Shown here piece by piece: positions 717-40,118 of a stretch of 64,000 nucleotides of DNA. The stretch's first letter is position 1. Every line of letters begins with the position of its first letter. Source of the stretch: Nonomuraea angiospora (GTDB lineage Bacteria; Actinomycetota; Actinomycetes; Streptosporangiales; Streptosporangiaceae); the NCBI RefSeq assembly GCF_014873145.1, contig NZ_JADBEK010000001.1, positions 558,001 through 622,000 on the forward strand. Direction: 5' to 3'. The notes under the pieces were generated by a model. It saw only the letters and a program-made list of their open reading frames with translations, searched no databases and had not been told where the DNA came from. The translations under genes were made by a program, and so were the position numbers.

Positions 717-1580
717 CTAACCCTGTCCCTTGCGCACCAGATAGCCTATGCCCCACGGCCGGATGACGAGTTCCATGGCGGCGTACCTGTCGAGGGGATC
801 CACCACGGACGACGCGATCAACTGGGCCAGGGCGGGTTCCAGTTCGACGGCTTCCAGCGTCGGTACGGCGGTTATGGTAAAGCCGGTGCCGCGCAGCAGT
901 TCGGCGGCGTCCCGGATCGAGTAATGGTCGGCGATGGGATTGACGTAGCGATCCATGTATCGGGCCTTCCGCTCGTCGTCCCGGGTCCAGGCCGGGTCGT
1001 CGCCGGCCCAGTCCAGGAGATCCCGTTCTTCCGCGGCGTACAGGCTCGAGTAGGCGGGGCGTACGGTCTCCAGTATGGCGAGCAGGTCCTCCACGGGACG
1101 GTTCTCGGCGCCGAATATGGCAAGGAGTTCGCGGATCTGGGCGATCTCGACGCGACCGTGCCGCGAATAGAGCCAGATGTATCCGGCCATATCCTGGCTC
1201 GTCGCCGCATAGATGTTTCTGAGGGCTGCCGCGGGATCGTTCATGTGGTGCAGGACGCCCTGGCAGAAGATGAAATCGAAGACGTCGCCCCCGCCGGGCA
1301 CCTCGGTCTCGAGATCGAGCACTTCGAAAGTGACGTTCGGCAGGCCACCGTGCCTCTGCCGGGCCAGCTCGATGGAGGCGGTCGAGCGGTCGACGGCGAG
1401 CACCGACGCCTCGGGGAAGTGCATCGCCAGTTGGCAGGTCATGGCGCCGGTGCCGCAGCCGGCGTCGAGGATGCGGTGCGGTGAAAGCGACTCGAAGAAG
1501 TGCCGGAGTTCCTTCTCGTAGAGGCCACCGTGATTGCCGTGCATCGGATAGGGATTGTCAATGTAGAAAGAATTGGTCAT
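717..1580 (-). CDS. SAM-dependent class I methyltransferase
   Basis: A 287-residue class I methyltransferase. Residues about 30-45 hold motif I (ILDAGCGTGAM), followed by the acidic loop ending strand beta-2 (AVDRS) and a motif IV-like segment (FDFIFCQGVLHHM). The start chosen is the ATG at 1578-1580, preceded by GGGAG; a longer open frame upstream has no ribosome site and overlaps the transporter gene. It starts 19 bases after the MFS stop, so it is probably the last gene of the MurA/MurB operon. The C-terminal half carries many Asp/Glu and Arg residues and no recognised second domain. The methyl acceptor is unknown; a small amino-sugar-derived product is plausible from context. Confidence 0.8.
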   Translation of the reverse strand: MTNSFYIDNPYPMHGNHGGLYEKELRHFFESLSPHRILDAGCGTGAMTCQLAMHFPEASVLAVDRSTASIELARQRHGGLPNVTFEVLDLETEVPGGGDVFDFIFCQGVLHHMNDPAAALRNIYAATSQDMAGYIWLYSRHGRVEIAQIRELLAIFGAENRPVEDLLAILETVRPAYSSLYAAEERDLLDWAGDDPAWTRDDERKARYMDRYVNPIADHYSIRDAAELLRGTGFTITAVPTLEAVELEPALAQLIASSVVDPLDRYAAMELVIRPWGIGYLVRKGQG

Positions 1581-1599
1581 TTCCCGCTCCCTTGGTTCA

Positions 1600-2853
1600 T
1601 CACGTCTGGGCGCGCGACTTGCGGACCCATCGGAAGATCTGAAGGCCGGCAAAGAGGAAGAGCACGAGTTGTGAGCTGAGGGCCAAGGCGAAGGCCGCAT
1701 TGACCGGGAGACCGTTCCGCTGGCCGAGGTCCAGCAGCCACCCGATGGAAAGGATCGTGAGTAGGGCGGCGACATAACCGCCGAGGTTCGCCATGGCGGC
1801 CGCGGTCGCCACCCGTGTGGCGTCGTTGGAGGTGCGGGCGACGTCCACGCCGAGCATGGTCGCGGGGCCGCACAGACCGAGCACCAGGACCAGGGCCACG
1901 ACCGCGGCGCTGGGAGCTCGGCCGGGCCAGAGCAGAAGCACCACCCACATGAGGCACACCAGCGTGATCACGAGTCCGCTCAATCGGATCCGCAGCTCGG
2001 GACGTCGTGATGCGAGCAGGCCGAACAGCGGTCCCGTGATCATGTTGGTCAGGATCAGCACGGTGAGCAGCCGGCTCGCGGAGTCGGCGCCCAGTCCCTG
2101 AGCCCGGGTCAAATACGGATATCCCCACAATGTCGAGAAGGAGACGAAGGAGAAGGCGGACGCGATGACCATCCACATCCCCAAGCGGGTGCCGGGTACG
2201 AGCCACACGCTCCGCAGATCGCGGAAGAGCCCGGGCAGGACCGACGGGGATCGAGGGGCGGGAGGATCACTCGTCACCGTGAGGAGTACCACGACGCCGA
2301 GACAGATCGTCGCCACGCCCGTGCTGAGAAAAGTAGGGGTCCAGCCTATCGTCGTCAGTGCGAGCGACAAGGGGATCGTGCTGATCAGGCTGCCCGCCAT
2401 CCCGATCACTGACATCAGCTGGACCTGCAGAGCCACCCGGTTCGAGGCGTTCCACGCGGTGATGAGGCGAAGGCCTCCCATGAACGTGAGCGCGTCTCCC
2501 ACGCCGAGAATCCCCCTGGCGAGCAAGGCCAGCGGGTAGGCAGTGGCGAGCGAGAACCCGATCTGGCCGCCACCGATGAGCACCATGGCCACCAAGAGCG
2601 TTCTCCGGGGCCCGAGCCGGTCGGCGGCCAGTCCTGCCGGCAACTGCAGGATGGCGTAGGCGAGCAATTGGTAGACCGCCAGCAACGACAGGGCACCGGG
2701 ACCGATCTGGAACCTCTGCTCGGCCAGGTCCACGGCCACGGTAAGGCTGGTGCGGTGGAACATCGCAGTGGCGTAGATCAGCGAGGCCAGGCCCCACATG
2801 ATCCAGCCGCGCCTGGCGGACTGGGGCGAGGTCCTGAGGGCGGGTGTCGTCAT
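1600..2853 (-). CDS. MFS family transporter
   Basis: A 417-residue polytopic membrane protein with about twelve hydrophobic segments and a central hydrophilic loop near residues 195-215. The first half holds the major facilitator loop signature (A-D-R-L-G-P-R-R after TM2), and the N-terminus begins with a typical positive-inside segment before TM1. Its ATG overlaps the stop of the HAD gene as ATGA, so the two are probably translationally coupled. In a biosynthetic operon it is most simply an exporter of the product or a shunt intermediate. Import of cell-wall sugars (as by AmpG) is possible but no sequence feature shows it. Confidence 0.82.
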   Translation of the reverse strand: MTTPALRTSPQSARRGWIMWGLASLIYATAMFHRTSLTVAVDLAEQRFQIGPGALSLLAVYQLLAYAILQLPAGLAADRLGPRRTLLVAMVLIGGGQIGFSLATAYPLALLARGILGVGDALTFMGGLRLITAWNASNRVALQVQLMSVIGMAGSLISTIPLSLALTTIGWTPTFLSTGVATICLGVVVLLTVTSDPPAPRSPSVLPGLFRDLRSVWLVPGTRLGMWMVIASAFSFVSFSTLWGYPYLTRAQGLGADSASRLLTVLILTNMITGPLFGLLASRRPELRIRLSGLVITLVCLMWVVLLLWPGRAPSAAVVALVLVLGLCGPATMLGVDVARTSNDATRVATAAAMANLGGYVAALLTILSIGWLLDLGQRNGLPVNAAFALALSSQLVLFLFAGLQIFRWVRKSRAQT

Positions 2854-3491
2854 GTAACAGGACCGCGGGATAGTTCACGATAGGGACGTATGTCCACCGC
2901 CACCATGCCCGCGCGCCGCGCCGCCTCAAAGCCGAGATCGGTGTCTTCCAGCACGACACAGGTGTGGGGCGGAGCAGCGAGTCGGTCAGCCGCGGCAAGG
3001 AAGAGATCGGGCGCCGGTTTGCCGCGCGCGACATGCTCCCGGGTGATCACCACGTTGAACAACCCGGCCAGCCCGCCGCCGGTCAGCAGCGCGCTTGCCA
3101 CCGGCTGGCTGCTCCCGGTGGCCACGGCCGCGGGTAAGCGCGGCTCCAGTCCGTGCGCCCATCGCGCCAGCGCCGCTACCGGCTCGATCACGGGTGCCAG
3201 CGCAGCCTGCTCGATGACCGCCCGCTCGCCGAGCTCCTTGAACCGCTCGGGGGACATGCCCCTCGGCAGCCGCCCGTGGTCCGCGAGTAACCGGACCCAG
3301 TCGGTGAACGCGGTCCCCTGAGGGGGACGAGGGACCCCCGTCAGATCGATGTCGTGGGTTGCGAGGATCATGCCGAGGGCCGCGCGGTTGACCGACCTGG
3401 TGTCGACCAGGGTGCCGTCGAGGTCGAAAATCAGACCACCGATTTGGTCGAGGGACAGCGGGAGCGTGATCGGCGTAGCGGTGCTCTCCAT
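2850..3491 (-). CDS. HAD-superfamily phosphatase (phosphoglycolate phosphatase-like)
   Basis: A 213-residue haloacid dehalogenase-type hydrolase. Motif I (DLDGTLVD, about residues 23-30) carries the nucleophile Asp and the +2 general acid Asp. Motif II is the Thr/Ser in AVATGSS, motif III the Lys in RGKPAPD, and motif IV the acidic pair in VLEDTDLG. The alpha-helical cap between motifs I and II is typical of subfamily I. The ATG at 3489-3491 is preceded by AAGGAG, which overlaps the MurB stop codon, so expression is probably coupled. The likely substrate is a phosphorylated sugar or nucleotide intermediate of the neighbouring MurA/MurB pathway; that assignment is inference. Confidence 0.8.
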   Translation of the reverse strand: MESTATPITLPLSLDQIGGLIFDLDGTLVDTRSVNRAALGMILATHDIDLTGVPRPPQGTAFTDWVRLLADHGRLPRGMSPERFKELGERAVIEQAALAPVIEPVAALARWAHGLEPRLPAAVATGSSQPVASALLTGGGLAGLFNVVITREHVARGKPAPDLFLAAADRLAAPPHTCVVLEDTDLGFEAARRAGMVAVDIRPYRELSRGPVT

Positions 3492-3500
3492 GCATTCTCC

Positions 3501-4568
3501 TTATGTGTCCATGACGCCGATGAAGCGAGGCTCCGGCATCAGCGTCACGCCGAAGAGCTCGCGGACTTGCTCGACGATGGTCCTGGCGGCGAAGGCGATG
3601 TCCGCGGCTGTCGTGCCGTCGTCCGCGACGAGGGCGAGCGTGTGCTTACGGGAGATGCGGGCCGAACGGAAACGTTGGCCGCGCTGGAACCCGGCCTTCT
3701 CCATCAGCCATCCCGCACTGGTGCGGACGTGACCGTCGCTCCCGGACAGCGCAGGAGGCTCGTGGCCGGTCAACGCGATCACTCGCCGTTTCACTTCTGC
3801 CCAGGCCCCTGCCGAGAGGAGGGGGTTGAGGAAGAAGGAGCCCGCGGACCTGCTTTCGGGATCTGCCGGGTCCACCACCATCCCTTTGCGGCGCCGGATC
3901 GCCAGGATGGCCGGCACGAGCTCCGAGATCGGCACCCGCGCGCCGAGGCCGGTCCCCAGCTCGACGGCCACCTGATCGTAGGTGATCGGTTCGCTCACGA
4001 AGCCGCGGCTCAGCCGGAAGGACACCGACATCACGGTGTGGCGATCCGGGTTCTCCTTGAACAGGCTCGACCGGTACCCGAAGCGGCACTCGGCCGGGGT
4101 GAGCTGCCGGCGTCCCCGCCTGGCCCAGTCCCAGACCTCGACCCTGGTGATGGTCTGCGCAACCTCCTGGCCGTACGCTCCCACGTTCTGGATGGGGAGC
4201 GCGCCCACGGTGCCGGGGATGCCCGCGAGGCACTCCAGGCCGGAAAACCCTTCGGCCACCACGAAGTCGATCAGGCGGGCGAACGGCTCGCCGGCCGCGA
4301 CGGTGACTTCGGCCGTGGAGTCGTCGATGACGGAGACCACCAGCCCTCGGGTCCTCATGAGCAGCACCGCATGCGGGTAGCCTTGATCGGAGACGACGAC
4401 GTTGCTGCCTTCGCCCAGGGTCAGCGGGGGAGGGCCGGGGCTGGTCATGGCGTGGTCGATGAGGTCGTCCGGTGTACGGATCTCCAACAGCCTGTCGCAC
4501 GGACCGCCGACACCGAAGGTGGTGAGTGGTCCTAAGGGCACGCCGGCGGTGGTGGACTGTCCACTCAT
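3501..4568 (-). CDS. murB: MurB-like UDP-N-acetylenolpyruvoylglucosamine reductase
   Basis: A 355-residue FAD enzyme of the MurB family, which reduces UDP-GlcNAc-enolpyruvate to UDP-MurNAc using NADPH. Visible landmarks are the N-terminal TTFGVGG, the FAD loop LGEGSNVVVSD (about 51-61), the segment LAGIPGTVGALPIQNVGAYG (about 114-133), the Arg of FGYRSSLF (Arg166) and the proton-donor Ser in SAGSFFLNP (Ser244). All catalytic residues that can be placed are present, so the enzyme looks functional. Its ATG overlaps the stop of the serine hydrolase gene by four bases. A MurB next to a MurA in a secondary-metabolite operon is unusual; it may supply a dedicated muramyl nucleotide or be a spare copy of a drug target. 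Confidence 0.93.
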   Translation of the reverse strand: MSGQSTTAGVPLGPLTTFGVGGPCDRLLEIRTPDDLIDHAMTSPGPPPLTLGEGSNVVVSDQGYPHAVLLMRTRGLVVSVIDDSTAEVTVAAGEPFARLIDFVVAEGFSGLECLAGIPGTVGALPIQNVGAYGQEVAQTITRVEVWDWARRGRRQLTPAECRFGYRSSLFKENPDRHTVMSVSFRLSRGFVSEPITYDQVAVELGTGLGARVPISELVPAILAIRRRKGMVVDPADPESRSAGSFFLNPLLSAGAWAEVKRRVIALTGHEPPALSGSDGHVRTSAGWLMEKAGFQRGQRFRSARISRKHTLALVADDGTTAADIAFAARTIVEQVRELFGVTLMPEPRFIGVMDT

Positions 4569-5584
4569 CGTTCCGCCAGCCCCTTGATGTTTTGTCGCAG
4601 CGCCGCCAGGCCCCGCCGGTCTCTCGAGTTGTACACCGCGTTGGACAGCACCGTGACATACGCCGCCTTCTCCTTGAAGACGAATATGCTGCTTCCTGTG
4701 AAGCCGTGGTGGTACATGGTGCGGCCGTCGTCCGACAGCAGCCAGGCCAGGCCGCGATGTTCGTCGCCGCCGGCATGGACCTGGATGCTCTGCTCGACGT
4801 AGCGGGCGAAGCCCGTGTCCGTCCAGTCGTCGGTGAGCACCCGTCGGCAGAACGCGGCCAGGTCGCGTGCCGTGGTGAAGACTCCGGCATGGCCTGCGAC
4901 CCCTCCCATCTGCGCGGCGTTCTCGTCGTGAACGACACCCCAGACAGGACGGGTGCCCGGGAGCCTGGTTTCTGTCGGGGCGACGGCGGGTGAGGCGGCG
5001 AGGGGACCGAAGCTCGTGTCGTTCATCGACCAGGGCTGCCAGACCCGCTCGGACATCAGCTGATCGAGCGGGCGCTTGTACAGCCTCTCGAGGAGCAGTC
5101 CGAGCAGCACGAAGCCTCTGTTGACGTACCGGTAGGAGGCGCCGGGCGGCGTGTCCAGCGGTTCGGAAAGAATCAGCTCCACGAGGTCGCGCCCCGAGCC
5201 GACGTAACGGTCGAACCGGGTCGCCGCCATGAGGCCGCTGGTGTGCGAAAGGATCTGCCGAGTGGTCACGACCGATCCCGGCAGGGACTCTTCGCCGAAA
5301 TACTCGCCGACAGGCGTGTCGAGGTCGAGGTCGTTGGCGGCGACGGCCTGGCCGACTCCGACCCAGGTCGCGACGATTTTCGTGAGCGAGGCGATATCGA
5401 ACAGCACGGTCTCGTGCGGAGGAAGGTCGACCAAGCCTGGTGCGATCACCCCGTGTGTCAGCACTCGCGTTCGCTCGACTGTGCCCACGATGGCGACGGC
5501 ACCGGGTGCGCCACCACTCGCGACCAATTCGTCAAGCCACGAAGAGACGGACTCCGCCGCCAGGTCCAGCCACTTTCCTGTCAT
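4565..5584 (-). CDS. Serine hydrolase, beta-lactamase / class C PBP fold
   Basis: A 339-residue serine hydrolase of the beta-lactamase (PF00144) family. The SxxK motif is S-L-T-K at residues 66-69. The second motif is Y-x-N in SYRYVNRGF (near 150), and HHGFTG near residue 286 is in the place of the KTG/HTG box. No signal peptide is visible, so it is probably cytoplasmic, unlike penicillin-binding proteins or secreted beta-lactamases. Members include esterases, D-aminopeptidases and acyltransferases. The ATG at 5582-5584 has GGAG nine bases upstream. It sits between MurA and MurB in one operon, suggesting hydrolysis or transacylation of a muramyl-type intermediate, but the substrate is not known. 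Confidence 0.82.
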   Translation of the reverse strand: MTGKWLDLAAESVSSWLDELVASGGAPGAVAIVGTVERTRVLTHGVIAPGLVDLPPHETVLFDIASLTKIVATWVGVGQAVAANDLDLDTPVGEYFGEESLPGSVVTTRQILSHTSGLMAATRFDRYVGSGRDLVELILSEPLDTPPGASYRYVNRGFVLLGLLLERLYKRPLDQLMSERVWQPWSMNDTSFGPLAASPAVAPTETRLPGTRPVWGVVHDENAAQMGGVAGHAGVFTTARDLAAFCRRVLTDDWTDTGFARYVEQSIQVHAGGDEHRGLAWLLSDDGRTMYHHGFTGSSIFVFKEKAAYVTVLSNAVYNSRDRRGLAALRQNIKGLAER

Positions 5585-5598
5585 GTGTTCAATCTCCG

Positions 5599-6870
5599 CT
5601 AGAGGTCAGAAAAAGAGATGTCTGCCCCGAGATTCGCCAGCTTCGGGACGAGAGAACTATATCCGCGATTCAGGTGAAAGACGCCGGATATGTGGGAGGT
5701 CCCTGCAGCGGTCAGAGCGGCCAGTAATAATGCCGTGACGCAGCGGATGTCCACTCCGGTCGCGCGGGTCCCCGCTAGTACGCGTGGGCCGCGCACGGTC
5801 AGCGTATTGCCATTCTCGCGAATATCGGCGCCGAATTCACGAAGGCCGGCGACATGGGTGGCGCGTTTCGGGTAGACAGCCTCCGTGATGGTGCTCTGCC
5901 CGTCCGCCAGCGTGAGCAACGCCGTCATCTGAGGCTGCAGGTCGGTGGGGAATCCCGGGTGCGGGGCGGTGGCGAAGTCGGTGGCCCTGAGGTCATGCCT
6001 CCGGGCGACGGCAACCCCTCCGGGAATGTCCGACATCTCGATGCCGACGGCATTGACGGCATCGTGGAAGGCCGACGGAAAATCCGCGAGCCGGGCGCCT
6101 TCCAGCGTGGTCCGGCCGTCGGTGGCGGCCGTGGCCATCACCAGCGTGCCGGCCTCCAGCCGATCAACGGGCACCGTGTAGTCCGCGGCGCGCAGGCCGT
6201 CCACGCCCTGGATCTCAATGCGTCCATCGTGCTGGACGGTGATGTCGGCCCCGGCCCTGTTGAGGAATTCGATCGTGTGCATCACCTCGGGCTCGATACT
6301 CGCGTCCGTCAGCACAGACCTTCCGCTCGCTGTCACCGCGAGGAAGAGAGCGGTCACGGTGGCCCCCAGACTGGGCCCGAAGGCGGTGTCCAACGATGCG
6401 GAGAACGCCTGGGGCCGCCCCGCGGCCAGCGTGGCCTCCACCCGGCCGGCGTGAAGCGTGATGTCGGCGCCGGCCGCGGCCATCACCGCCAGGTGCCGAT
6501 CGATGGGGCGGTCGCAGAACGCGTCACCTCCCGGCAGCGGGAAAGTCGCCTGCCCGGCGCGGACGAGCACGGCCGCGCCGAAGCACGCGGTCGGGCGGAT
6601 CCGGCCGCCCAGCTCGGCCGGGATCATTGCGCTGATCTTCCCTGCGGCTTTCGTCTTCAACCTCTGGTCGTCGTAGTCGGCGTCCGCGCCCAGGCTCCGC
6701 AACAGTTCCGCGCAGACGTGCGTGTCGATGATGTCCGGGGCGTTGGACAGCTCGACCACGTCCGGTATGAGGAGTGACGCTGCGTAGAGGTGCAGGGCGA
6801 TGTTCTTGGACCCCTGCACCAGGCATCGGCCGTGCAGCGGCCGGCCGCCGTTTACCAGGAGTCGGTTCAT
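5599..6870 (-). CDS. murA: MurA-like UDP-N-acetylglucosamine 1-carboxyvinyltransferase with Asp at the Cys115 position
   Basis: A 423-residue enolpyruvyl transferase of the EPSP-synthase fold. MurA transfers the enolpyruvyl group of PEP to UDP-GlcNAc. The Lys of GSKN (Lys22), an Arg near 92 in RIRPTACF, and the Asp of GFPTDLQPQ (Asp310) match the expected active site. The loop that in E. coli reads PGGC reads PGGD here (Asp116), a substitution known to give fosfomycin insensitivity while keeping activity (as in mycobacterial MurA). The ATG at 6868-6870 follows AGGTGAG; a GTG at 6877-6879 overlapping the upstream TGA is an alternative. It is the third enzyme of a murA-murB-type set, either biosynthetic or for self-resistance. 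Confidence 0.92.
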   Translation of the reverse strand: MNRLLVNGGRPLHGRCLVQGSKNIALHLYAASLLIPDVVELSNAPDIIDTHVCAELLRSLGADADYDDQRLKTKAAGKISAMIPAELGGRIRPTACFGAAVLVRAGQATFPLPGGDAFCDRPIDRHLAVMAAAGADITLHAGRVEATLAAGRPQAFSASLDTAFGPSLGATVTALFLAVTASGRSVLTDASIEPEVMHTIEFLNRAGADITVQHDGRIEIQGVDGLRAADYTVPVDRLEAGTLVMATAATDGRTTLEGARLADFPSAFHDAVNAVGIEMSDIPGGVAVARRHDLRATDFATAPHPGFPTDLQPQMTALLTLADGQSTITEAVYPKRATHVAGLREFGADIRENGNTLTVRGPRVLAGTRATGVDIRCVTALLLAALTAAGTSHISGVFHLNRGYSSLVPKLANLGADISFSDL

Positions 6871-6875
6871 GGCGC

Positions 6876-7595
6876 TCACCTGATTCTCGAGTCGGCGGGC
6901 AGAACGCCGCCGATCTGGTTCCTGGGATAGATCACGGTGCGTGGTCCGATCAGCGTGCCCGGCGACGTAGAGATCAGCGCGGGCAGTTGCGCGTGGTCAC
7001 CGATCACCGCACCGAACTTCGTGTAGCCGGTCGGCACCGGGTGCCCATCGACGTTCACCGAAATCTCGTCCACGGCAGGCTCCTGGACCGGCCGGTCGAC
7101 TCTGAGGTTGGTGGTGACGCACGAGCTCCCGATGTTCACGTGGTTGCCGACCACCGAATCGCCGATGAACACCATGTGCGTCGCCTGTGATTCGGACATG
7201 ACTATTGTTCGGGTTACCTCGGTGCAATGACCGATTTTGCAGCGCGGTCCGATAATGACGTTATCGCGTATATAGGCATGCGATCGGACGACGGAACCAG
7301 CGCAGATGAGCGCCGGCCCTTCGATGTAGGCGCCGGCCTCGACAACGGCGCCGCGCTGCACGATCACGTCGCCCTCCACATGCGCGGCGTGGTGCACGGA
7401 GCCGCGAATGTCGCGCCGCGCGCGGTCGCCCAGCCAATCCGTCATCGCCTGCTTGATGTGCAGCACGGAAGTGCAACTCTCGAAGAGATCGGCGAAGGGC
7501 AGATGCTTGACGTCGAAGTAGTACGAGATCTGGAGCTTCTCGAATACGAGATTCTCGGTAGTGTGTTGAGTCGTTCCAGGTAAATTCCCGCTCAC
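6876..7595 (-). CDS. Left-handed beta-helix (GlmU C-domain-like) acyltransferase-type protein
   Basis: A 239-residue protein with a hexapeptide-repeat left-handed beta-helix from about residue 50 onward. The repeats (I/V/L-G/A-x-x-x-x) run through VIVQRGAVVEAGAYI, LICAGSVVRSHAYI and VIIGPRCKIGHC. It resembles the C-terminal domain of GlmU and sugar-phosphate nucleotidyltransferases, but the nucleotidyltransferase domain is missing. The GTG at 7593-7595 is preceded by GGAG six bases upstream; an ATG at 7605-7607 is also in frame but lacks a good site. It is the first gene of the MurA/MurB operon, so N- or O-acylation of an amino-sugar nucleotide is a reasonable guess. The acyl donor is unknown. 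Confidence 0.75.
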   Translation of the reverse strand: MSGNLPGTTQHTTENLVFEKLQISYYFDVKHLPFADLFESCTSVLHIKQAMTDWLGDRARRDIRGSVHHAAHVEGDVIVQRGAVVEAGAYIEGPALICAGSVVRSHAYIRDNVIIGPRCKIGHCTEVTRTIVMSESQATHMVFIGDSVVGNHVNIGSSCVTTNLRVDRPVQEPAVDEISVNVDGHPVPTGYTKFGAVIGDHAQLPALISTSPGTLIGPRTVIYPRNQIGGVLPADSRIR

Positions 7596-7624
7596 GTGGC
7601 GCTCCATGGAGAAGAGGTTCTGCT

Positions 7625-8407
7625 ATGCGGCAGGTCGGACTGGTCGCGGAGGACGGCGTTCTGCTGGACGCTGTGTTGCATGAGCCGGCCGGTGAGCCGA
7701 GGGGAATGGTGGTCGCCCTTCACGGCATAACGGGGGACATGGAGGCGCGAGGAAAGTTCCCCCGGCTGGCGGACATTCTCGTGGCGGCAGGCTGCGCAAT
7801 GCTGAGGTTCTCCTTTCGCGGGCATGGAAGGAGCGGCGGAACGCCGGCGAACGTGACGATCGCGGGGGAGGTCCTGGATCTGCAGGCGGCGCTTGCCTAC
7901 GTGAGATCCCTGGGCGATCTGCCCTTGTCCCTCGTCGCGACCAGCTTCGGCGCAGTGAGCGCGACACTCTCGTTGCCCGATCTCGAAGGCCGGCTGACCG
8001 GACTGGTGCTCTGGTGCCCGGTCCTGGACCTTCGCCACACGTTTCTTGAGCCACAACTGCCGTGGGGACGGGCCAACTTCGGCCCTCAGCAGCAGCAACG
8101 CATGCTCGCGGACGGCGAGTTGCTGATTGATGGGAGATTCGCGATCGGACGTGCGTTGTGGGAGGAATTCGCGCTCCGCCGTCCGCTCGATCATCTGTTG
8201 AGCAGCTCGGTCCCTGCCCTCATCATCCACGGGGACCAGGACAGCTATGTTTCCTACGAGGTTGCGAGGGCCGCGTCCCGAGGCCGCGCCGCGTGTGAGT
8301 TCCGGACCATCTCCGGCGCGGAGCACGGTTTCGACACCCGCGAACGCGAGGATGAGGCGATCCTGGTGACAGCGGACTGGCTGCTGGGAAGGCACAACGC
8401 CTCATGA
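7625..8407 (+). CDS. Alpha/beta hydrolase
   Basis: A 260-residue alpha/beta hydrolase. The oxyanion region ALHGITGD (about 31-38) and FRGHGRSGG precede the nucleophile elbow, where the usual G-x-S-x-G reads A-T-S-F-G (Ser near 107). The acid is the Asp of IIHGDQDSYV and the His is in GAEHGF near residue 238. It is the only plus-strand gene in the first 15 kb. It starts 29 bases from the divergent LbH gene and its 3' end overlaps the 3' end of the carbamoyltransferase gene by six bases, so the two mRNAs are antisense at their ends. Likely roles are ester or thioester hydrolysis, or editing of ACP-bound chains. Confidence 0.83.
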   Translation: MRQVGLVAEDGVLLDAVLHEPAGEPRGMVVALHGITGDMEARGKFPRLADILVAAGCAMLRFSFRGHGRSGGTPANVTIAGEVLDLQAALAYVRSLGDLPLSLVATSFGAVSATLSLPDLEGRLTGLVLWCPVLDLRHTFLEPQLPWGRANFGPQQQQRMLADGELLIDGRFAIGRALWEEFALRRPLDHLLSSSVPALIIHGDQDSYVSYEVARAASRGRAACEFRTISGAEHGFDTREREDEAILVTADWLLGRHNAS

Positions 8408-10123
8408 GGCCGGTGCGTCGTCCTGCTCGATCAGGAGGTTGCCCAGGGCCAGGTAACGCAGGCCCGACAGGTCGAAAACCCGCAACGCCTGGGCCGGCGA
8501 TTCCACGATCGGATAGCCGTGCAGGTTGAAGGAGGTGTTGAGAACGGCGCCGATCCCCGTGCGCTCTTCGAACAGCTTGATGAGCCGGTGGTAGCGGGGG
8601 TTCGCCTCGGCCGAGAGGATCTGCGGCCTGCACGTGTGGTCCTGCGGGTGCACGGCGGCTCTCAGCTCGTGAAATTTCTCCTCGTTCAAGGAGAATGCCT
8701 GAGCCATGTACTCACCGCCGAACTCCCGCCAGTCGGTGAGGTAGTCGTGCGCTCTCTCACGTAGGACGGTGGGTGCGAAAGGCATCCAGAAGTCCCGCTT
8801 CTTGACCATCTGATTGATGATCAGGGTGGCATCCGGGTCACTGGGATTGGCCAGGATGGAGCGGTTTCCCAGGGCCCGCGCGCCGAATTCCATGCGGCCG
8901 GCGAAGCGTGCGACGATCTTCTTGTCCGCGAGCAGAGCGGCGCATCGGTCTTCGATGTCGTCGACCTCGTGCACGCGTACGCTCTTGAGGAAGGTGTGCT
9001 GGTCGACCGCCGCCGCCACGTCGGCGTCGGTGTACTCGGACCCCAGATACAGGCCGGGAAGCGGGCGGCGGCCGGAATCCGTAGGGGAAGGCGCGGTGTC
9101 CGCCGCGACCCAGGCCGCGCCGAGCGAGTTGCTCTCGTCCCCGCCGGAAGGGCAGAAGAAGGCCGAGGTGACCTCGGGCAGCGCGGCGATGCGCTGGTTG
9201 ATCTTGACATTCATGAAGAGCCCGCCGCCGAAGGCCAGATCGGTGATGCCCAGCGAACGAACGACGTTCGTCACCCACTGCGTGGTGACGCGCTCCGCGA
9301 ACATCTGCAAGCCGGCCATCACCGTGTCGAAGCGGCGGAAGCGCAGCAGGTCGAGGAGCATCGGAGCCATCTCGGTCACCGGCGGCGTGCCCTGTCGCCT
9401 CTTCCAGATCAGTGGCTCGGCCGGGTCCATTTCGAACATGGACTCGAAGAGGGCGCAAATCTCGCTTGCCGCCTTCGTGTTCTCCGCGTAGGGTGCCATG
9501 CCCATGAGCTTGTATTCATGCTCAAGTGGTACAAACCCCAGCAAGTACGTCACGTAGCCATAGATGGCCGCGATCGAGTCGTCCCGAGGGACGGCGGCCA
9601 AGCGTGTCAGCTTGCCATTGCTGCCGACTGAGACCGAGGCGCACAGGTCGTCTCCATGGCCGTCGCTGGTGAGGACGAGGACCTCTTGGTCGAACGTCCC
9701 CCTGGCGAAGTAGGCGGTCGCTGCATGGCAGGTGTGGTGATCGATGAACTGGATCCGCTCCTCGGGATATCCCGCGTCCCGCAGAAACTCCGCTCTCCGG
9801 CGCTGCTGCTCCACCGCGCCGCCTCGTGACTCGAGCGCCAGTTGTTCGGCCGGTGCGGTAAATGTGCGACCGAAGACCGTCATGACGTCGGCTGTGGTGT
9901 GCAATCCGGGATTGCGGAACTCAAGCGTGCTGAACGCAACTTGATCGATTTCATGCAGCGACGTTCCAGTGAGTTCGAGAATGCGCTGAACTGCCGCCTT
10001 GGGAGCTCCTCCGCGATTCTTTTCCCGCGTTAATCGCTCTTCTTGAATAGCGGCAACGACCTGGTCGTCGTCGATTATGCACGCGGACGCAGAATGACCA
10101 TCGTGCACACCGAGAACCTTCAC
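8402..10123 (-). CDS. NodU/CmcH-family O-carbamoyltransferase
   Basis: A 573-residue carbamoyltransferase. These enzymes make carbamoyladenylate from carbamoyl phosphate and ATP and then transfer the carbamoyl group to a hydroxyl. The N-terminal Kae1/YgjD-like domain begins VLGVHDGHSAS and has the metal-binding cluster DHHTCHAATAY (His129, His130, His133). The C-terminal YrdC-like part contains EFGARALGNRSILANPSD and the FAPTVL segment around residues 410-455. Length and both domains match NodU, CmcH, NovN and TobZ. The GTG start at 10121-10123 has GGAG four bases upstream. It appears to be transcribed alone from the 10124-10580 spacer. A sugar hydroxyl is a likely acceptor given the amino-sugar enzymes nearby. 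Confidence 0.92.
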   Translation of the reverse strand: MKVLGVHDGHSASACIIDDDQVVAAIQEERLTREKNRGGAPKAAVQRILELTGTSLHEIDQVAFSTLEFRNPGLHTTADVMTVFGRTFTAPAEQLALESRGGAVEQQRRRAEFLRDAGYPEERIQFIDHHTCHAATAYFARGTFDQEVLVLTSDGHGDDLCASVSVGSNGKLTRLAAVPRDDSIAAIYGYVTYLLGFVPLEHEYKLMGMAPYAENTKAASEICALFESMFEMDPAEPLIWKRRQGTPPVTEMAPMLLDLLRFRRFDTVMAGLQMFAERVTTQWVTNVVRSLGITDLAFGGGLFMNVKINQRIAALPEVTSAFFCPSGGDESNSLGAAWVAADTAPSPTDSGRRPLPGLYLGSEYTDADVAAAVDQHTFLKSVRVHEVDDIEDRCAALLADKKIVARFAGRMEFGARALGNRSILANPSDPDATLIINQMVKKRDFWMPFAPTVLRERAHDYLTDWREFGGEYMAQAFSLNEEKFHELRAAVHPQDHTCRPQILSAEANPRYHRLIKLFEERTGIGAVLNTSFNLHGYPIVESPAQALRVFDLSGLRYLALGNLLIEQDDAPAS

Positions 10124-10580
10124 ACTGCTCCTTCGTCGGCTTGACCGTCATGTCAGATCGGACGAGTCCAAACCATATGTACGACAATCCGCAATGTCAA
10201 GTGTCCGGCATTCTCGATGAATTGTCACAGAATGCTGCGAACCGAATACGCGCGCATCTGAAATATGGCCATCTTTTCGCGCAGGTTTCGGTCGCCTCCT
10301 TTTCGGCTTCCCCTGGTCGCGCCCTCGGAGTGGTGTGAATAAACACGACGGGGTGGTTGCCGTGGGCGATCCTAAACGCCGCGATAGCGGCTGCCAAGGC
10401 CGGAGCAGCGCCGGATGAAAGACTCGCGGGTATGCGAGTCTTTGCCTCCGGCGGTGCGTTCGGCGGCTGCGCTGGTGCCGTTCGATCGGCAGGCGTGGAA
10501 GGACGTCGGGCTGTAGCGGCCGGTCAGCGGGGTACGACGTGTCGTGCTCGGGCGACGACGCCCTCTGGGAGCCGTACCCT
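10124..10580. other. Intergenic region upstream of the carbamoyltransferase gene
   Basis: This 457-base spacer lies between the carbamoyltransferase start and the AcpS stop. The part nearest the carbamoyltransferase gene is noticeably AT-richer than the flanks, as expected for a promoter region. No StrR-type dyad, terminator hairpin or coding signal was recognised in it. Small open frames here lack ribosome sites and family features. Confidence 0.5.
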
Positions 10581-30001: not shown

Positions 30002-30205
30002 GTGCACTCCTCTATGGACGGCTGAACTGCGCCCTCGGCCCGGCAACGCTCGCGCGGGTATTCCCGGTCCGTCCTACCGGACGGCCTGCTCGCTGTGGTA
30101 TTTCATGATGAGGACGATGTCCGGTGCTCGTCACAGGTCATTATGACGTGGTGACGGTATTTCGCTGTCTTCCGAGAATCGGTTCTTTGCGGCCAGGAGG
30201 CTGTG

Positions 30206-31450
30206 ATGGAGATTCCTTATCACGATCTGGTGCTGGAGTTCGGGACGCCCACGTACGTGTATGAGGGTTCCCGCATGACCAGGACGCTTGCTCATGTTCG
30301 AAATGTCCTGCATCCTCGTCTGGAGGTCTTCTACTCGCTGAAGGCTAATCCAAATATCAGCGTGTTCGCGCTGCTGCACGCGAACGGGGCGCGGGCCGAG
30401 GTTTCGTCTCTCGGCGAGCTGAGAACGGTTCTCGCCGCCGGTGCGGTACCCGAGGACATCATTTTTCTGGGCCCCGGAAAGAGCGATGACGAACTCGCCG
30501 CATGTATATCGGCCAATATCTACGCCATTGTCTGCGAGGCCTTCGACGAACTCGACCGGATCGAGCGCCTGGCTGGCGAGCGCGGCGTGCGGCAAAGGGT
30601 GCTCCTGCGGATCAACCCGGCCTCGTCCGCCCCGGGCGCGCGATTGGCGATGGGCGGGAAACCGAGGCAGTTCGGCATCGACGAGAAGGCGCTGCTGGCC
30701 GAGCCGGGGCTCGCCAACCGGTTCCGGCACGCCGACCTGGCCGGGGTCCAGGTTTACTGCGGCTCGAGGATCCTGGACTGGCAGGCGATCGCAGCCAACA
30801 CCCGCTATGCGCTCGACCTGGCCGAGGAGGTCGCCGCCGCCACGGGAATACGCCTGGATGCCGTGGACATCGGCGGTGGGTTTGGCGTGCCGTACTTCGA
30901 AGGCGAGCACGCACTCGATCTGGATGCGCTGGCGGAGGTCATGAACCCGGCGATCGAGAGGTTCGCCCGCAACCACCCCGACACCAGGATGATCCTGGAG
31001 ATGGGGCGGTTCCTGGTCGCCGCCGCTGGCGTATACCTCGTCCGGGTGCGCTCGGTGAAGGAATCCCACGGGCAGAGTTTCGTGATCACCGATGGGGGAA
31101 CCCACCATCATCTGCCCGCCGTGGGCATCGGCTCCATCGCGAGAAGGAACTTCCCCATCAGGCTCTTGGAGGACGCGGCCGGGCCCGATGAAGTCTGCCA
31201 GGTCGCGGGCCTCCTCTGTACGCCCAACGATCTGCTCGGCAGGAATGTCCTGCTGCCGAAGCCCCGCATCGGTGACGTCCTCGGCATCTTCCAGTCAGGG
31301 GCGTACGGGCTCTCCGCGTCCCCTGGCCTGTTCATCAGCCACGGCTTCCCCGCCGAGGTGCTCGTCCACGAGGGGAGGTCTTACCTCGTACGCGAGAGAG
31401 ACGACCCGGATGACCTGCTCCGCAAGCAACGTCACCACAATTTCCAGTAG
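30206..31450 (+). CDS. PLP-dependent decarboxylase, BtrK/exosortase-associated type (fold type III)
   Basis: A 414-residue alanine-racemase-fold decarboxylase of the ornithine/diaminopimelate decarboxylase superfamily. The Schiff-base Lys is Lys46 in FYSLKANPN. A Gly-rich phosphate-binding turn (DIGGGFGVP), the EMGR segment (EPGR in relatives), the C-terminal catalytic Cys in GLLCTPNDLL and the Tyr in SGAYGLS are all present. The closest pattern I recognise is BtrK of butirosin synthesis, which decarboxylates an ACP-bound glutamyl group. The ATG at 30206 follows AGGAGG; a GTG one codon earlier is also possible. The paired ligase gene is divergent. The substrate is probably an ACP-bound or free amino diacid. 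Confidence 0.85.
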   Translation: MEIPYHDLVLEFGTPTYVYEGSRMTRTLAHVRNVLHPRLEVFYSLKANPNISVFALLHANGARAEVSSLGELRTVLAAGAVPEDIIFLGPGKSDDELAACISANIYAIVCEAFDELDRIERLAGERGVRQRVLLRINPASSAPGARLAMGGKPRQFGIDEKALLAEPGLANRFRHADLAGVQVYCGSRILDWQAIAANTRYALDLAEEVAAATGIRLDAVDIGGGFGVPYFEGEHALDLDALAEVMNPAIERFARNHPDTRMILEMGRFLVAAAGVYLVRVRSVKESHGQSFVITDGGTHHHLPAVGIGSIARRNFPIRLLEDAAGPDEVCQVAGLLCTPNDLLGRNVLLPKPRIGDVLGIFQSGAYGLSASPGLFISHGFPAEVLVHEGRSYLVRERDDPDDLLRKQRHHNFQ

Positions 31451-31514: not shown

Positions 31515-33173
31515 TCACGAACTGTCGTTCGTCATGCTCACCGGCAGGGTTCCCCTCGGGGAATGGTGGCCGGTGAGGATATCCGCCAGCGCATCGACAG
31601 AAGGCAGGGACGCCGAGTAGGCGCAGAGGGCGGTGCCGAGGTCGGGTGACAGGTGTGTGATGTCGAAGGGCTCGGCGAGAGAGACATGAATGATCGGGAC
31701 ATTGAGGCCCGCGAGGGCCGACACGAGCTCGCGCTGCCCGAAGCGTTCCCCTATCCAGGCGCGTTCCGTCATCGCGATGATCAAGTCGGTAGGCTCGACG
31801 TTCCGCGTCAAGCGCTTGACGTCGTCGAGGGACGGCAGGTGATGCAGGTCGGTAGGAGCCGAGGGGTGGCCGGCGGAAGCCAGTTTGTCGGCCAATCGTT
31901 TCGCGACGAGGAAGGCCGGGCTGTCGCAGGTGGCGATCACCCGCACGCGCGTGTATCGACCAGCATGTAGGGGGAGTAGCCCGGCGTCGTCTTTGATCAA
32001 CGTGACGGAAGCATGTCCGATCGTCCGGGCGATCGTTGTGTGCTCGGGAACGGCCACCGCCTCTGAAATGCCTGCCAGGTCTACCGGTGCGCCACCCAGA
32101 ATGCGTCGGCGTGCCTTCACCCGGAGAATCCGCAGTACCGATTCGTGCAGACGGTCCTCGCCGATCTCTCCCGATTCGACCGCTCGGAGAACGGCATCGT
32201 ACGCGTTCGGAAGGTTGGACGGCCGCATCAGCAGATCGGCGCCGGCCTGGAACGCCTCCACGACATGAGATTGATCCGCCGAGTCGATGGCACCCATGTC
32301 CAGGGCGTCCGTGATGATCAGCCCTGAGTAGTTCAGTTCGCTCCGCAGTATGTCGGTGAGTATGCGTCGCGAGAGCGTCGCGGGCCGTCCACGGGGGTCC
32401 AGGGCGGGAACGGATATATGGGCGGTCATGATGGCATCGACACCTACTCGGATGGCATCGAGGAAAGGAGGTAGATCCCACCTGCTCCAGTCGTGGTCCC
32501 GCTGGATCGTGGGTAGCGACGTATGGGAGTCGATATCGGTTGCTCCGTGCCCCGGAAAGTGCTTGGCTACCGCCGAAACATACTGCTGCAGGCCCAAGGT
32601 GTTTGCGGCGGCGAACGCGCCGACGCGAGCCGGGTCGCTCCCGAACGAACGAGTGCCTATGACCGCGTTGTTCGAGTCGGCCAGGACATCGCACACCGGA
32701 GCGTAGATCTGGTTGATCCCGACCCGCTTGAGCTCTTTTCCGACAACGCGGCCGACGGCATGTGCATGCTGCGGGTCTTCGGTCGCTCCCAGGGCCAGCG
32801 CTCCCGGAAACTGGGTGAACGCCGTCCCCAGCCGATCCACCCGGCCATTCTCTTGGTCGATCGCGATGAAGAGCTCGGTCGGTGTCTCACGCTGGATGTC
32901 ATTCGACAGCCGGGCGATTTGATGAGGGTTCACCAGATTTACCGCCCATTTATAATAGATTACACCTCCCAAGTGGTAGGTCGATATTAGCTCTCGCGCA
33001 TCTTGCACGCCGAAATCCGCTAGATTCCTCTGCGCCGCCCATGGTGGAACGTGCATGGACGTGTGACCGTGCACGTGCGACATGAACAGTTGCCCGACCT
33101 TCTCCCTGAGGCTTAGATCGGCCAGCCAGGTCAAGGCTTGGGTCTCCGCGGCCGCGGCATTCGCCTGTTGCAT
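31515..33173 (-). CDS. nagZ: Glycoside hydrolase family 3, NagZ-type beta-N-acetylhexosaminidase
   Basis: A 552-residue GH3 enzyme. It carries the NagZ-specific stretch KHFPGHG (204-210) with the D-S-H triplet at 215-217 that provides the acid/base His-Asp pair. The nucleophile is in ITDALDMGA (Asp289), and FIAIDQENGRVDRLG matches the substrate loop. A C-terminal half of about 200 residues follows, as in two-domain actinobacterial and Gram-positive NagZ proteins. The ATG at 33171-33173 has an AAAGG upstream and no signal peptide, so it is probably cytoplasmic. NagZ removes terminal GlcNAc from cell-wall muropeptides. Here it could recycle or trim a GlcNAc-containing intermediate, or confer resistance to a wall-active product. 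Confidence 0.88.
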   Translation of the reverse strand: MQQANAAAAETQALTWLADLSLREKVGQLFMSHVHGHTSMHVPPWAAQRNLADFGVQDARELISTYHLGGVIYYKWAVNLVNPHQIARLSNDIQRETPTELFIAIDQENGRVDRLGTAFTQFPGALALGATEDPQHAHAVGRVVGKELKRVGINQIYAPVCDVLADSNNAVIGTRSFGSDPARVGAFAAANTLGLQQYVSAVAKHFPGHGATDIDSHTSLPTIQRDHDWSRWDLPPFLDAIRVGVDAIMTAHISVPALDPRGRPATLSRRILTDILRSELNYSGLIITDALDMGAIDSADQSHVVEAFQAGADLLMRPSNLPNAYDAVLRAVESGEIGEDRLHESVLRILRVKARRRILGGAPVDLAGISEAVAVPEHTTIARTIGHASVTLIKDDAGLLPLHAGRYTRVRVIATCDSPAFLVAKRLADKLASAGHPSAPTDLHHLPSLDDVKRLTRNVEPTDLIIAMTERAWIGERFGQRELVSALAGLNVPIIHVSLAEPFDITHLSPDLGTALCAYSASLPSVDALADILTGHHSPRGTLPVSMTNDSS

Positions 33174-33334
33174 GTTGAGCCTTTCGTGAACCCATGAAAA
33201 GAGCTTCTGCGCGGGGAGACTGCGACCGAGAACGAGCCCGCGCCGACCAGCTGGCCGGTGTCGCGGCGGCATACCGGCTGGGGCGGAGCAACCGGCCGGT
33301 GGACGCGGTCGCTCACGACCACGGTCATTCACGG

Positions 33335-33601
33335 TCATTCGGTCAAGCTCTGGACCAGCAGCGAGTCGATGACCGACCACAATCCGGCCGGCGTCGCGAA
33401 CATGCTCGCGGTCAGCATGTGGTCGGGAACCGCCACTCCGAACGTCTCCTCCAGGTCCAGTAGCAGGCTAACCGCTGCCAAGGAGTCCACACCGTGGTCG
33501 GCGAGGCTGAGGTCGGGAGAGATCGGCTCGCCGGGGCGAAGGGGGGCCAGATAGGTGCGCAGTGTCTCCTCGAAGGGAACGGGCCACGTGTGCTCGGTCA
33601 T
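33335..33601 (-). CDS. Acyl carrier protein
   Basis: An 88-residue carrier protein. The attachment Ser is in LADHGVDSLAAVSLLLDLEE (Ser about residue 40), a typical D-S-L motif. The ATG at 33599-33601 has AAGGAAGG upstream; seven earlier in-frame codons are unsupported. It lies between the NagZ-like gene and an ACAD gene on the same strand with gaps of 161 and 85 bases, so it is probably in one operon with them. It is the third free-standing ACP of the cluster and may carry the substrate of the two ACADs encoded upstream (33687-36194). Confidence 0.92.
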   Translation of the reverse strand: MTEHTWPVPFEETLRTYLAPLRPGEPISPDLSLADHGVDSLAAVSLLLDLEETFGVAVPDHMLTASMFATPAGLWSVIDSLLVQSLTE

Positions 33602-33686
33602 GCGAACACCTTCCTTGTCCAAACCGGATATCTCCCACGGGGATACGGATCAGCCGCACACGCTGAGGACGCGTCGTCGCGTGTGC

Positions 33687-36194: not shown

Positions 36195-36195
36195 C

Positions 36196-38522: not shown

Positions 38523-39194
38523 TCATCGGTCACTGGTCATGGCGACAGGGGCGCTTCGTTGCTGGCGAACTTCGACCTCTGCGACGAGCCCCGGCCTGGC
38601 TCGGAACGTCTCGGCAGATCCCTTGCCATAGAGTTCGAGAAGAAACTGTTCCTCGTGCCGGCTGAGAAGAACCAGGTCCGGCTGTTCGGCAAAACCGCGA
38701 TGAACTTCGTCGGCGCTCAGCGGCGTATCATCGTGAGGACGCCAGTGGGCGAGCAGGAGAATGCCGCCCTCTATGAGACTGTCGACGGTTTTGGCGACGA
38801 ATTCTCGGTAATCGCTGGGCTCGAAATAGCAGAGTGTTTCCAAGACTGCGATGAGATCAAACTTCTCATCCGGCCAGTCACGGGGTAGCACCAATCTGGC
38901 GAAATCCACTTGTCCAAGCTGATTTCTGTCCTGTGCCTGTGCGTACCGTCTGCGAGCATGCTGCAGGGCCGATCCGGAGAAATCTGCAGCAAGCACTCTC
39001 TTGCATCGCCGTGCGAATTCGAGTGTGTGCACCCCTGTTGCGCAGCCGGGCTCGAAAGCGTTGTCGTATCGCTGATCCGGTAGCATTGCGAGTGTAATTC
39101 TGCGTTTCCGTTCCTCATACCATCTGGATTCGAAGAGGAACGGGTCGGATGCTGCTTTGTAGCGCTCTTCGAAGTAGTCAATGCCGAATGTCAA
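38523..39194 (-). CDS. NodS-like SAM-dependent methyltransferase
   Basis: A 223-residue methyltransferase resembling NodS, the N-methyltransferase of rhizobial Nod factor synthesis. The start region FGIDYFEERYKAASDPFLFE and the block AMLPDQRYDNAFEPGCATG, which contains motif I, match the NodS family layout. VLETLCYFEPSDYREFV follows. The start chosen is the TTG at 39192-39194 with AGGGAG five bases upstream; an ATG 22 codons earlier has no site. It is divergent from a NodB-like deacetylase gene (258-base spacer), so the two are a likely functional pair: deacetylate an amino sugar, then N-methylate it. Confidence 0.82.
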   Translation of the reverse strand: MTFGIDYFEERYKAASDPFLFESRWYEERKRRITLAMLPDQRYDNAFEPGCATGVHTLEFARRCKRVLAADFSGSALQHARRRYAQAQDRNQLGQVDFARLVLPRDWPDEKFDLIAVLETLCYFEPSDYREFVAKTVDSLIEGGILLLAHWRPHDDTPLSADEVHRGFAEQPDLVLLSRHEEQFLLELYGKGSAETFRARPGLVAEVEVRQQRSAPVAMTSDR

Positions 39195-39452
39195 TGTGAC
39201 TCCCTGTCGGGCTTGGAGCAGGCGCTCCGTGAGCACACGGCACCCTGGAAAGGGCGGCATCGGGTCCCCAACGGCATGACACCGCGCCGGGGCTTCGTAA
39301 GAAGTTACCTGGAAGGCTGATCCTTGGAAAGTCGCTTGACGTCTCCGGGCTCATTGGCCGGCGGTTGTAGGGCGTGCCGGCATGCAGTACGCTTGCGGCC
39401 CGCCTGAAAGGTTGGTCTGCGGGCAGAATAAGCCGACTCCTGGGGGATCAAC

Positions 39453-40118
39453 ATGAGAGATGTGGCGCTTACGTTCGACGTTGAGCACCCGGATCAGCCG
39501 AATGGCGACCCGCTCATCGTGAATGCCACCCTTGACCGCCTCCATGAAGCGGCGATACAGGCCTCCTTCTTCATTCAGGGCTCGTGGGCTGCCGCGTACC
39601 CAGAAATAGCCCGTCGTATCGCGAACGAGGGGCATCTCATCGGTCTGCACTCCCAGTGGCACACTGCCTATACCTATCTCACCGACGACGGCATAGACGC
39701 GGACCTTTCTCGCGGCCACAAGATCGTCAAGAATGTTACCGGCCGAGATCCACTGCCTTGGTTCCGGTTGCCGTTCGGCCGTGGCGCGGACGATGCACAT
39801 GTGCTCGCGCTTCTGGCTGAGTCCGGGTTCAGAAGTGTTTACTGGAATGTTGACCCCGTGGACTGGGACTGTACGGCGACGGCCGCCGAGGTCTGTCATG
39901 CCATGGCGGCCGGCACGCGCGAGGTGGAGGGCCCTGCGGTGATCGTTTGTCACTCTTGGTCGCAGCTGACCATGGCGGCATTACCTTCGTTCATCAAGGA
40001 TGCGCGAGAAGAATGTCAGTTCGTGACCCTTGATCAATTGCCGGCCGAGGCCGTTTCTCTGCTGGGTCCCACATCAGTATGGAGCCGAGCAGGTGCACAG
40101 AGTCCATTCGTGGGCTGA
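39453..40118 (+). CDS. NodB-like polysaccharide deacetylase family protein
   Basis: A 221-residue carbohydrate esterase 4-type deacetylase. The first motif reads TFDVEH (Asp9), the metal-binding His-x3-His is H-S-Q-W-H at 66-70, the third motif is FRLPFGRG, and a His in VIVCHSW ends the domain. No signal peptide or membrane segment is visible, so it acts in the cytoplasm, unlike wall-modifying deacetylases. The ATG at 39453 follows GGGGGA. NodB and its relatives remove acetyl groups from GlcNAc residues. Next to a NodS-like methyltransferase, and in a cluster with NodU- and MurA/MurB-type enzymes, an N-acetylated amino sugar or its nucleotide is the likely substrate. Confidence 0.88.
   Translation: MRDVALTFDVEHPDQPNGDPLIVNATLDRLHEAAIQASFFIQGSWAAAYPEIARRIANEGHLIGLHSQWHTAYTYLTDDGIDADLSRGHKIVKNVTGRDPLPWFRLPFGRGADDAHVLALLAESGFRSVYWNVDPVDWDCTATAAEVCHAMAAGTREVEGPAVIVCHSWSQLTMAALPSFIKDAREECQFVTLDQLPAEAVSLLGPTSVWSRAGAQSPFVG

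Follow-up and report, generated by a model that had tools for sequence, protein, structure and literature searches.

A Gene Module Uniting MurA, MurB and an O-Carbamoyltransferase in Nonomuraea angiospora, with a Candidate Role in Making a Muramic-Acid-Like Sugar

Gene Content of the Locus

The DNA analysed here, hereafter the window, is a stretch of 64,000 nucleotides from the actinomycete Nonomuraea angiospora (positions 558001-622000 of a single-contig genome of 13.1 Mb). Near its start, seven minus-strand genes (1600-10123; Table 1) encode, from high to low coordinates, an O-carbamoyltransferase, a left-handed beta-helix (LbH) protein, a MurA-like enolpyruvyltransferase, a beta-lactamase-fold serine hydrolase, a MurB-like reductase, a phosphatase of the HAD family and a transporter of the major facilitator superfamily (MFS). 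These seven genes form one module, in which three pairs overlap by four bases (LbH/MurA, serine hydrolase/MurB and HAD/MFS). The genes named in a first-pass annotation, made from the sequence alone, are present as open reading frames (ORFs) at about the positions that it gave; those of the serine hydrolase, the HAD protein and the MFS protein were not on its list.

The window MurA passed the NF006873 cut-off (369.3 versus 297 bits) and narrowly missed that of TIGR01072 (351.4 versus 392.7). In alignments it keeps the Lys, Arg and Asp that we take, from the family, to be catalytic, as well as an Asp as general acid. The MurB passed both of its family cut-offs (NF010478, 354.5 versus 231 bits; TIGR00179, 154.9 versus 144.5), and its active-site Arg, Ser and Glu, which presumably hold the catalytic roles assigned to them in the family, align with those of Escherichia coli MurB (1mbb). 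The carbamoyltransferase scored well above the gathering thresholds of both its domains (PF02543, 105.7 versus 24 bits; PF16861, 197.6 versus 27), and its best-scoring solved relatives were 7xb6, 9s2t (novobiocin), GdmN and TobZ.

The serine hydrolase passed PF00144 and missed the class C beta-lactamase family by far (NF033085, 30.3 bits for a cut-off of 415). Its SxxK and YxN motifs are invariant in 25 of 25 sequences (window, Embleya and 23 cassette copies, see below), none of which has a hydrophobic N-terminus in a crude hydropathy count, so that the enzyme seems to be cytoplasmic, unlike a secreted beta-lactamase or a penicillin-binding protein. A 669-residue protein (P0047), in which MurA is fused to part of the serine hydrolase, points to a functional link between the two. 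The LbH protein matched structure 2ggo, with His144 invariant in 28 of 28 sequences, and reached 148.4 of the 292.1 bits set for TIGR03992, over model positions 226-391 of 393 only. A full GlmU could be dismissed, as only the LbH half matched and the nucleotidyltransferase (pyrophosphorylase) half is lacking. The HAD and MFS proteins stayed below the cut-offs of TIGR02009 (103 versus 153 bits) and TIGR00893 (71.5 versus 395 bits), respectively.

Two further genes are possible accessories, namely the methyltransferase gene downstream of the MFS gene and the alpha/beta hydrolase gene; neither is matched in the stretches of Kutzneria and Embleya described below, although a different alpha/beta hydrolase ORF adjoins the Embleya serine hydrolase gene. 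Three minus-strand ORFs (7592-8395, 10148-10711 and 30131-31111) were rejected as genes for want of a family match, the first and the third facing a family-matching ORF on the opposite strand.

Table 1. Features of the window, with module genes and their immediate neighbours first.
Feature	Position	Strand	Family evidence and remarks
S-adenosylmethionine (SAM) methyltransferase	717-1775	-	PF13847 and others; true start probably later
MFS transporter	1600-2853	-	PF07690; weakly like sugar-acid/organic-anion (galactonate, phosphoglycerate) carriers
HAD-family phosphatase, beta-phosphoglucomutase-like	2850-3491	-	PF00702
MurB-like UDP-N-acetylenolpyruvoylglucosamine reductase	3501-4568	-	NF010478, TIGR00179
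Beta-lactamase-fold serine hydrolase	4565-5584	-	PF00144, 171 bits
MurA-like UDP-N-acetylglucosamine (UDP-GlcNAc) enolpyruvyltransferase	5599-6879	-	NF006873; Asp at catalytic Cys position
LbH protein	6876-7607	-	Like acetyltransferase half of archaeal GlmU
Alpha/beta hydrolase	7625-8407	+	PF12146, 66 bits; between carbamoyltransferase and LbH genes, convergent with the former
O-carbamoyltransferase (Carbam_trans_N + C)	8402-10123	-	PF02543/PF16861
Carrier-protein cluster	10952-38238		
Carrier-protein matches	12718-12972; 33335-33622		Third, just under Pfam cut-off: 26174-26530
Transglutaminase-like proteins, two related	13058-14020; 20832-21749		Third, by eye only: 19499-20422
Transposase remnant	15966-16847		DDE_Tnp_1_4, 54.7 versus 34.7 bits
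Glycoside hydrolase family 3 (GH3) protein	within 31515-33380		GH3 Pfam passed
NodS-like methyltransferase	38523-39260		
NodB-like polysaccharide deacetylase	39453-40118		Adjoins the methyltransferase
Nucleotidyltransferase-like protein	41677-42963		PF14907
tmk-like gene	46070-46744		
RiPP-like cluster	47280-61709		
Protein with ricin-type lectin domain	62209-63378		Weak sigma-region-4 matches

Recurrence of the Module in Other Genomes

When 84,980 genomes were scanned with a 20-MurA alignment, at least 45 loci were obtained by way of two exact peptide patterns. One of them, in Kutzneria viridogrisea (L064), carries all seven genes consecutively on one strand, in the order LbH, MurA, serine hydrolase, MurB, HAD, MFS and carbamoyltransferase (65, 56, 56, 56, 54, 50 and 63% identity to the window proteins, respectively). 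The surrounding 80 kb held one further tblastn match, a 29% deacetylase lying 7 kb beyond the module, and a six-frame blastp of the same region brought nothing further except ABC domains and an AMP ligase (27%). In Embleya hyalina, a stretch of 8.3 kb contains five of the module genes, including a second MurA of the clade described below (47%) and copies of the MFS protein (46%) and of the carbamoyltransferase (59-61%). There, the serine hydrolase and MurB genes lie on one strand and those of MurA, the carbamoyltransferase and the MFS protein on the other; MurB and MurA are separated by a NUDIX ORF, and the MFS gene is followed by a carrier-thioesterase ORF (PF00550, 35.3 bits; PF00975, 63.3 bits). 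The 40 kb read there gave no match to the LbH, HAD, NodS-like or NodB-like genes. In both genomes the MFS gene adjoins the carbamoyltransferase gene, which lies near MurA. This recurrence indicates that the clustering of MurA, MurB and the carbamoyltransferase is more than chance. E. hyalina holds two MurA modules, this one (L139/L140) and one of the smaller cassette form (L043), whose MurA reading frame contains two TGA stops.

Closer to the host, the MurA of Nonomuraea sp. NPDC050227 is 91% identical to that of the window. Among metagenome proteins, a carbamoyltransferase (P0150, 68%) and a MurA (P0033, 52%) each lie on a contig of 9153 bases, which may be one contig or two. No further genome of a 394-genome class sample had the carbamoyltransferase at E 1e-90, and two such samples, of 394 genomes each, searched with strict E limits yielded no further carbamoyltransferase or MurA of the module kind.

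The Nod-Like and GH3 Genes Lie Outside the Module

The first-pass annotation had joined homologues of NodU (the carbamoyltransferase), NodS and NodB with MurA, MurB, the LbH protein and a NagZ-type GH3 enzyme into one cluster, which would make a deacetylated, N-methylated and carbamoylated amino sugar in the manner of Nod factors. All these genes do lie within 40 kb, the deacetylase and methyltransferase genes adjoin each other, and a distant deacetylase stands near the Kutzneria module, as mentioned above. Nevertheless, we consider this proposal very improbable on the following lines of evidence. First, the likeness to the rhizobial proteins holds at the superfamily level only, all three curated cut-offs being missed by far: 81 versus 1000 bits for NodU (NF041651), 45.4 versus 300 for NodS (NF041650) and 82.2 versus 240 for NodB (TIGR04243). 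The deacetylase fits PdaB better, yet also below the cut-off (TIGR02764, 112.6 versus 237.4 bits), and the GH3 protein, a GH3 member by Pfam, is a near miss for the NagZ-type beta-N-acetylhexosaminidases (NF003740, 185.6 versus 207 bits). Second, the NodS-like, NodB-like and GH3 genes lie 21-30 kb from the module, past a transposase remnant and carrier-protein genes. Third, they do not travel with the module elsewhere: among the 45 loci, the NodS-like profile matched none, as was also the case for the KedN5 and transglutaminase-like (TGL1) profiles, and the NodB-like profile matched one weakly (L060, 41 bits). The GH3 profile likewise matched one, L061, a Deltaproteobacteria metagenome-assembled genome without the cassette. 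Neither Nod-like gene was found in the 40 kb around the Embleya module. Together, the missed cut-offs and the gene neighbourhoods argue against a Nod-type set.

The NodS-like, NodB-like and GH3 genes are therefore not part of the module. What stands of the proposed cluster, in Kutzneria and, except for the LbH gene, in Embleya, is its MurA, MurB, LbH and carbamoyltransferase portion; across genomes, MurA, MurB and the carbamoyltransferase recur together, whereas the NodS-like, NodB-like and transglutaminase-like partners do not accompany them. The deacetylation and N-methylation of the product lose their support accordingly, since the two enzymes do not travel with the module. A genus-conserved block, which would have set the Nod-like genes apart as housekeeping, did not appear either: the NodB-like gene, the only one so searched, had a match at E 1e-35 in one of 53 other genomes (32 of the same genus, including the matching one).

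A Smaller Cassette and Its Regulator

When the 45 loci were searched with profiles at E 1e-10 (flanks of at most 10 kb, several of them truncated by contig ends), a smaller and more frequent unit emerged. The LbH protein and the serine hydrolase were each matched in 36 loci, both together with MurA in 35, and MurB in 22. All four occur in 21 loci, and 14 have the triple without MurB, which in L050, if not in others too, is due to the end of the contig. L064 was the one locus matched by the carbamoyltransferase, HAD and MFS profiles. On plasmid records, the annotated order is a helix-turn-helix (HTH) regulator, the LbH gene (labelled hypothetical protein or sugar nucleotidyltransferase), MurA, serine hydrolase and MurB.

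A regulator was matched in 32 of the 45 loci, above 250 bits in 27 of these 32, and 23 of the 27 belong to the 35 LbH-MurA-serine hydrolase loci. The strong matches came from two separate profiles, one of which was built on the regulator of L073, where the main profile had no hit; the regulators may thus be of two kinds. The cassette regulator passes HTH_31, and an array resembling tetratricopeptide repeats (TPR) was seen in one predicted model only (mean pLDDT 81). These features, the array for the one regulator modelled, may be shared with the XRE-TPR regulators of the RRNPP type (Rap/NprR/PlcR/AimR), from which the cassette regulator differs in being actinobacterial and in standing beside sugar-enzyme genes; as TPR arrays are common, the match shows no ligand. 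The site of the XRE-type regulator, TTTGCA-N5-TGCAAA, was present once per genome in 5 of the 13 genomes, and then always ahead of the cassette. This operator is absent from the window at up to two mismatches, and no relative of the regulator was noticed there, so that the regulator findings apply to the smaller cassettes.

In other loci (L046, L048, L053, L055, L056, L073 and L107), an NAD-dependent epimerase replaces the LbH protein and the serine hydrolase beside MurA, mostly with the regulator and a small NUDIX-family gene. Epimerase and MurA without the serine hydrolase make up five of the 45 loci, the regulator match being strong in four of them and weak in L056 (74 bits). The same arrangement is found on plasmids L073 and L107. 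Such epimerase-MurA cassettes with related regulators fit with the biosynthesis of varied sugars.

A Separate MurA Clade with Asp at the Cysteine Position

The MurA tree comprised 71 rows: 49 from cassettes or modules, L061, and 21 other MurA-like copies from 11 cassette genomes and the host, which are less than 40% identical to the window MurA and presumed to be of the housekeeping type (five further copies, which have no locus, were left out). The 49 form one clade (support 99/99) apart from the 21 others, with which L061 groups, and the window and Kutzneria MurAs are sisters (98/94); the tree program warned of long-branch joins. Within the host genome, the window MurA is 28-35% identical to the other MurA-like genes. 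At the position of the catalytic Cys115, 56 of 57 cassette rows have Asp, the remaining one being unreadable and about a dozen loci being counted twice; the 21 other copies have Cys in 16 cases and Asp in 5.

MurA enzymes of the Asp type are known to resist fosfomycin. The Asp/Cys contrast is the best evidence for a role in self-protection, in which a spare, inhibitor-insensitive MurA/MurB pair would keep UDP-MurNAc flowing while the transporter and the carbamoyltransferase would expel or inactivate the inhibitor. The regulator that accompanies the related cassettes, with its site always before them, is in keeping with such a role, as is feglymycin, which is said in an excerpt of PMC8698665 to target both MurA and MurB. 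Several observations count against it: the apparently cytoplasmic serine hydrolase, the LbH protein devoid of the pyrophosphorylase half of GlmU, the 14 of 35 triple loci in which MurB was not seen (L050 among them), the epimerase variants, which have no obvious bypass role, and the lack of any ORF above 820 residues, hence of a large modular non-ribosomal peptide synthetase, in the window. On balance, we regard self-protection as unlikely.

The Adjoining Carrier-Protein Cluster

Beyond the carbamoyltransferase gene lies an unusual carrier-protein cluster. Besides the carrier and transglutaminase-like proteins, it encodes several acyl-CoA dehydrogenases (ACADs), an AurF-like oxygenase, a class III aminotransferase, a fatty acyl-AMP ligase (FAAL), a free condensation domain, an AMP ligase beside a pyridoxal-phosphate-dependent (LysA-like) decarboxylase, and a B12 radical SAM enzyme of the KedN5 family (960.9 versus 700 bits).

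The module might feed this cluster, a carbamoylated muramic-acid-like unit being joined to a product made on acyl carrier proteins (ACPs), so that about 1-38 kb would be one cluster. This proposal, which we hold only tentatively, draws on the adjacency, the carrier-protein matches and the free condensation domain in the window, on the carrier-thioesterase ORF just past the Embleya MFS gene, and on a plasmid of Streptomyces anulatus NBC_01010 (L074/L104), where a MurA of the clade occurs with tmk and NUDIX genes and has as neighbours PseB, an epimerase, condensation, adenylation and carrier proteins, an ACAD, ABC transporters and YcaO/TOMM genes. In these three neighbourhoods, a link of the carrier-protein genes to the module is possible. 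Against it, the 80 kb around the Kutzneria module held no relative of the ACP, condensation, transglutaminase-like or ACAD genes, even if tblastn can miss short ACPs, which indicates that the module can exist without them. The transglutaminase-like family was found in four other genomes of the 394-genome sample (E 1e-20); the 18-36 kb read in each contained neither MurA nor MurB (one has a 28% carbamoyltransferase and another a 33% deacetylase, each within 15 kb). Furthermore, the ACAD and carbamoyltransferase genes are about 830 bases apart.

Further along, the window contains a tmk-like gene, the PF14907 and lectin-domain proteins of Table 1, and a separate cluster resembling those of ribosomally synthesised and post-translationally modified peptides (RiPPs), with a radical SAM/SPASM protein, YcaO, a B12 radical SAM protein, an aldo/keto reductase, a methyltransferase, NUDIX, TfuA and CYTH proteins and two ABC transporters.

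A Proposed Pathway

We propose, at roughly even confidence, that the module is a biosynthetic and transport unit that would make a carbamoylated sugar acid resembling muramic acid from UDP-GlcNAc or a closely related UDP-amino sugar. From the observed gene content, recurrence, clade and catalytic residues, we infer the substrates, the order of the steps and the direction of transport as follows. MurA and MurB, with their catalytic residues in place, would build the 3-O-lactyl ether; the LbH protein, given its fold and invariant His, may acylate an amino or hydroxyl group; the HAD enzyme would take off a phosphate, and the serine hydrolase, acting in the cytoplasm, could hydrolyse or transfer an acyl group, for which the lactyl carboxylate is a possible site; the carbamoyltransferase, whose family is clear, would carbamoylate a hydroxyl; and the MFS protein would carry the acidic sugar across the membrane. 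A carbamoylated product derived from muramic acid or GlcNAc, as suggested in the first-pass annotation, is thus where the MurA/MurB/LbH/carbamoyltransferase unit would point. Its remark that no glycosyltransferase is present also held, no family match of that kind being found among the window ORFs scanned, which were not all of them.

Similarly to peptidoglycan synthesis, the module has MurA and MurB with the family catalytic residues, from which UDP-GlcNAc to UDP-MurNAc chemistry would be expected; it differs in that its MurA is an extra copy from a separate clade with Asp at the Cys position, and in that both genes adjoin those of the LbH protein, the serine hydrolase and the carbamoyltransferase. 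The nikkomycin and polyoxin pathways (NikO/PolA) also employ a MurA-fold enolpyruvyltransferase in actinomycete natural-product synthesis, and the polyoxin pathway includes carbamoyl transfer. The module MurA is, however, far closer to true MurA (254 bits) than to NikO (4fqd, 97 bits), and it has a MurB partner, which to our knowledge those pathways lack. The carbamoyltransferase belongs to the same two-domain family as TobZ, GdmN and the novobiocin-type enzymes, with full-length or nearly full-length matches, and is set apart by the MurA gene near it in both K. viridogrisea and E. hyalina; by identity, with no tree, its nearest relatives in named genomes are those of Kutzneria albida (63%) and E. 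hyalina (59%).

Several points weigh against the biosynthetic proposal. Among the genomes read, the carbamoyl form occurs in only three (the window host, Kutzneria and Embleya). In the window, the carbamoyltransferase gene lies upstream of the LbH gene with a convergent gene in between, so that the seven genes may not share one transcript. Embleya does without the LbH and HAD genes, a NUDIX ORF comes between its MurB and MurA genes, and its MurA joins L031 and L074 (93/94), at a fork that is not resolved, rather than the window/Kutzneria pair. With carrier-protein genes next to the module both here and in Embleya, the product may be something other than a free molecule. Finally, the MurA missed the TIGR01072 equivalog, if narrowly, and the Asp of the clade would be predicted by resistance as well.

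Biological Significance

Among the papers listed by full-text searches of the open-access literature (subscription papers were not covered), none dealt by its title with the cassette, or with MurA, MurB and a carbamoyltransferase together in a natural-product cluster, in line with the first-pass annotation, which recognised no described pathway of this kind. A wider and rather doubtful extension of our proposal is that a dedicated actinomycete branch of MurA, with or without MurB, makes diffusible muramic-acid-like molecules, whose synthesis would in most cassettes be controlled by, and which might perhaps be sensed via, the adjacent XRE-TPR regulator; these would be a new class of sugar-acid signals or antibiotics drawn from a peptidoglycan precursor.

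If the biosynthetic proposal is true, a specialised pathway would branch off at the committed step of cell-wall synthesis. MurA modules and cassettes were seen in several families of actinomycetes and also on plasmids, and most have a regulator of their own. A carbamoylated muramic-acid-like compound, if made, could act as an antibiotic directed at the cell wall or as a signal, or lead to one of these as its precursor. Were the genes instead a backup MurA/MurB set, they would represent a source of cell-wall inhibitor insensitivity that has been overlooked.

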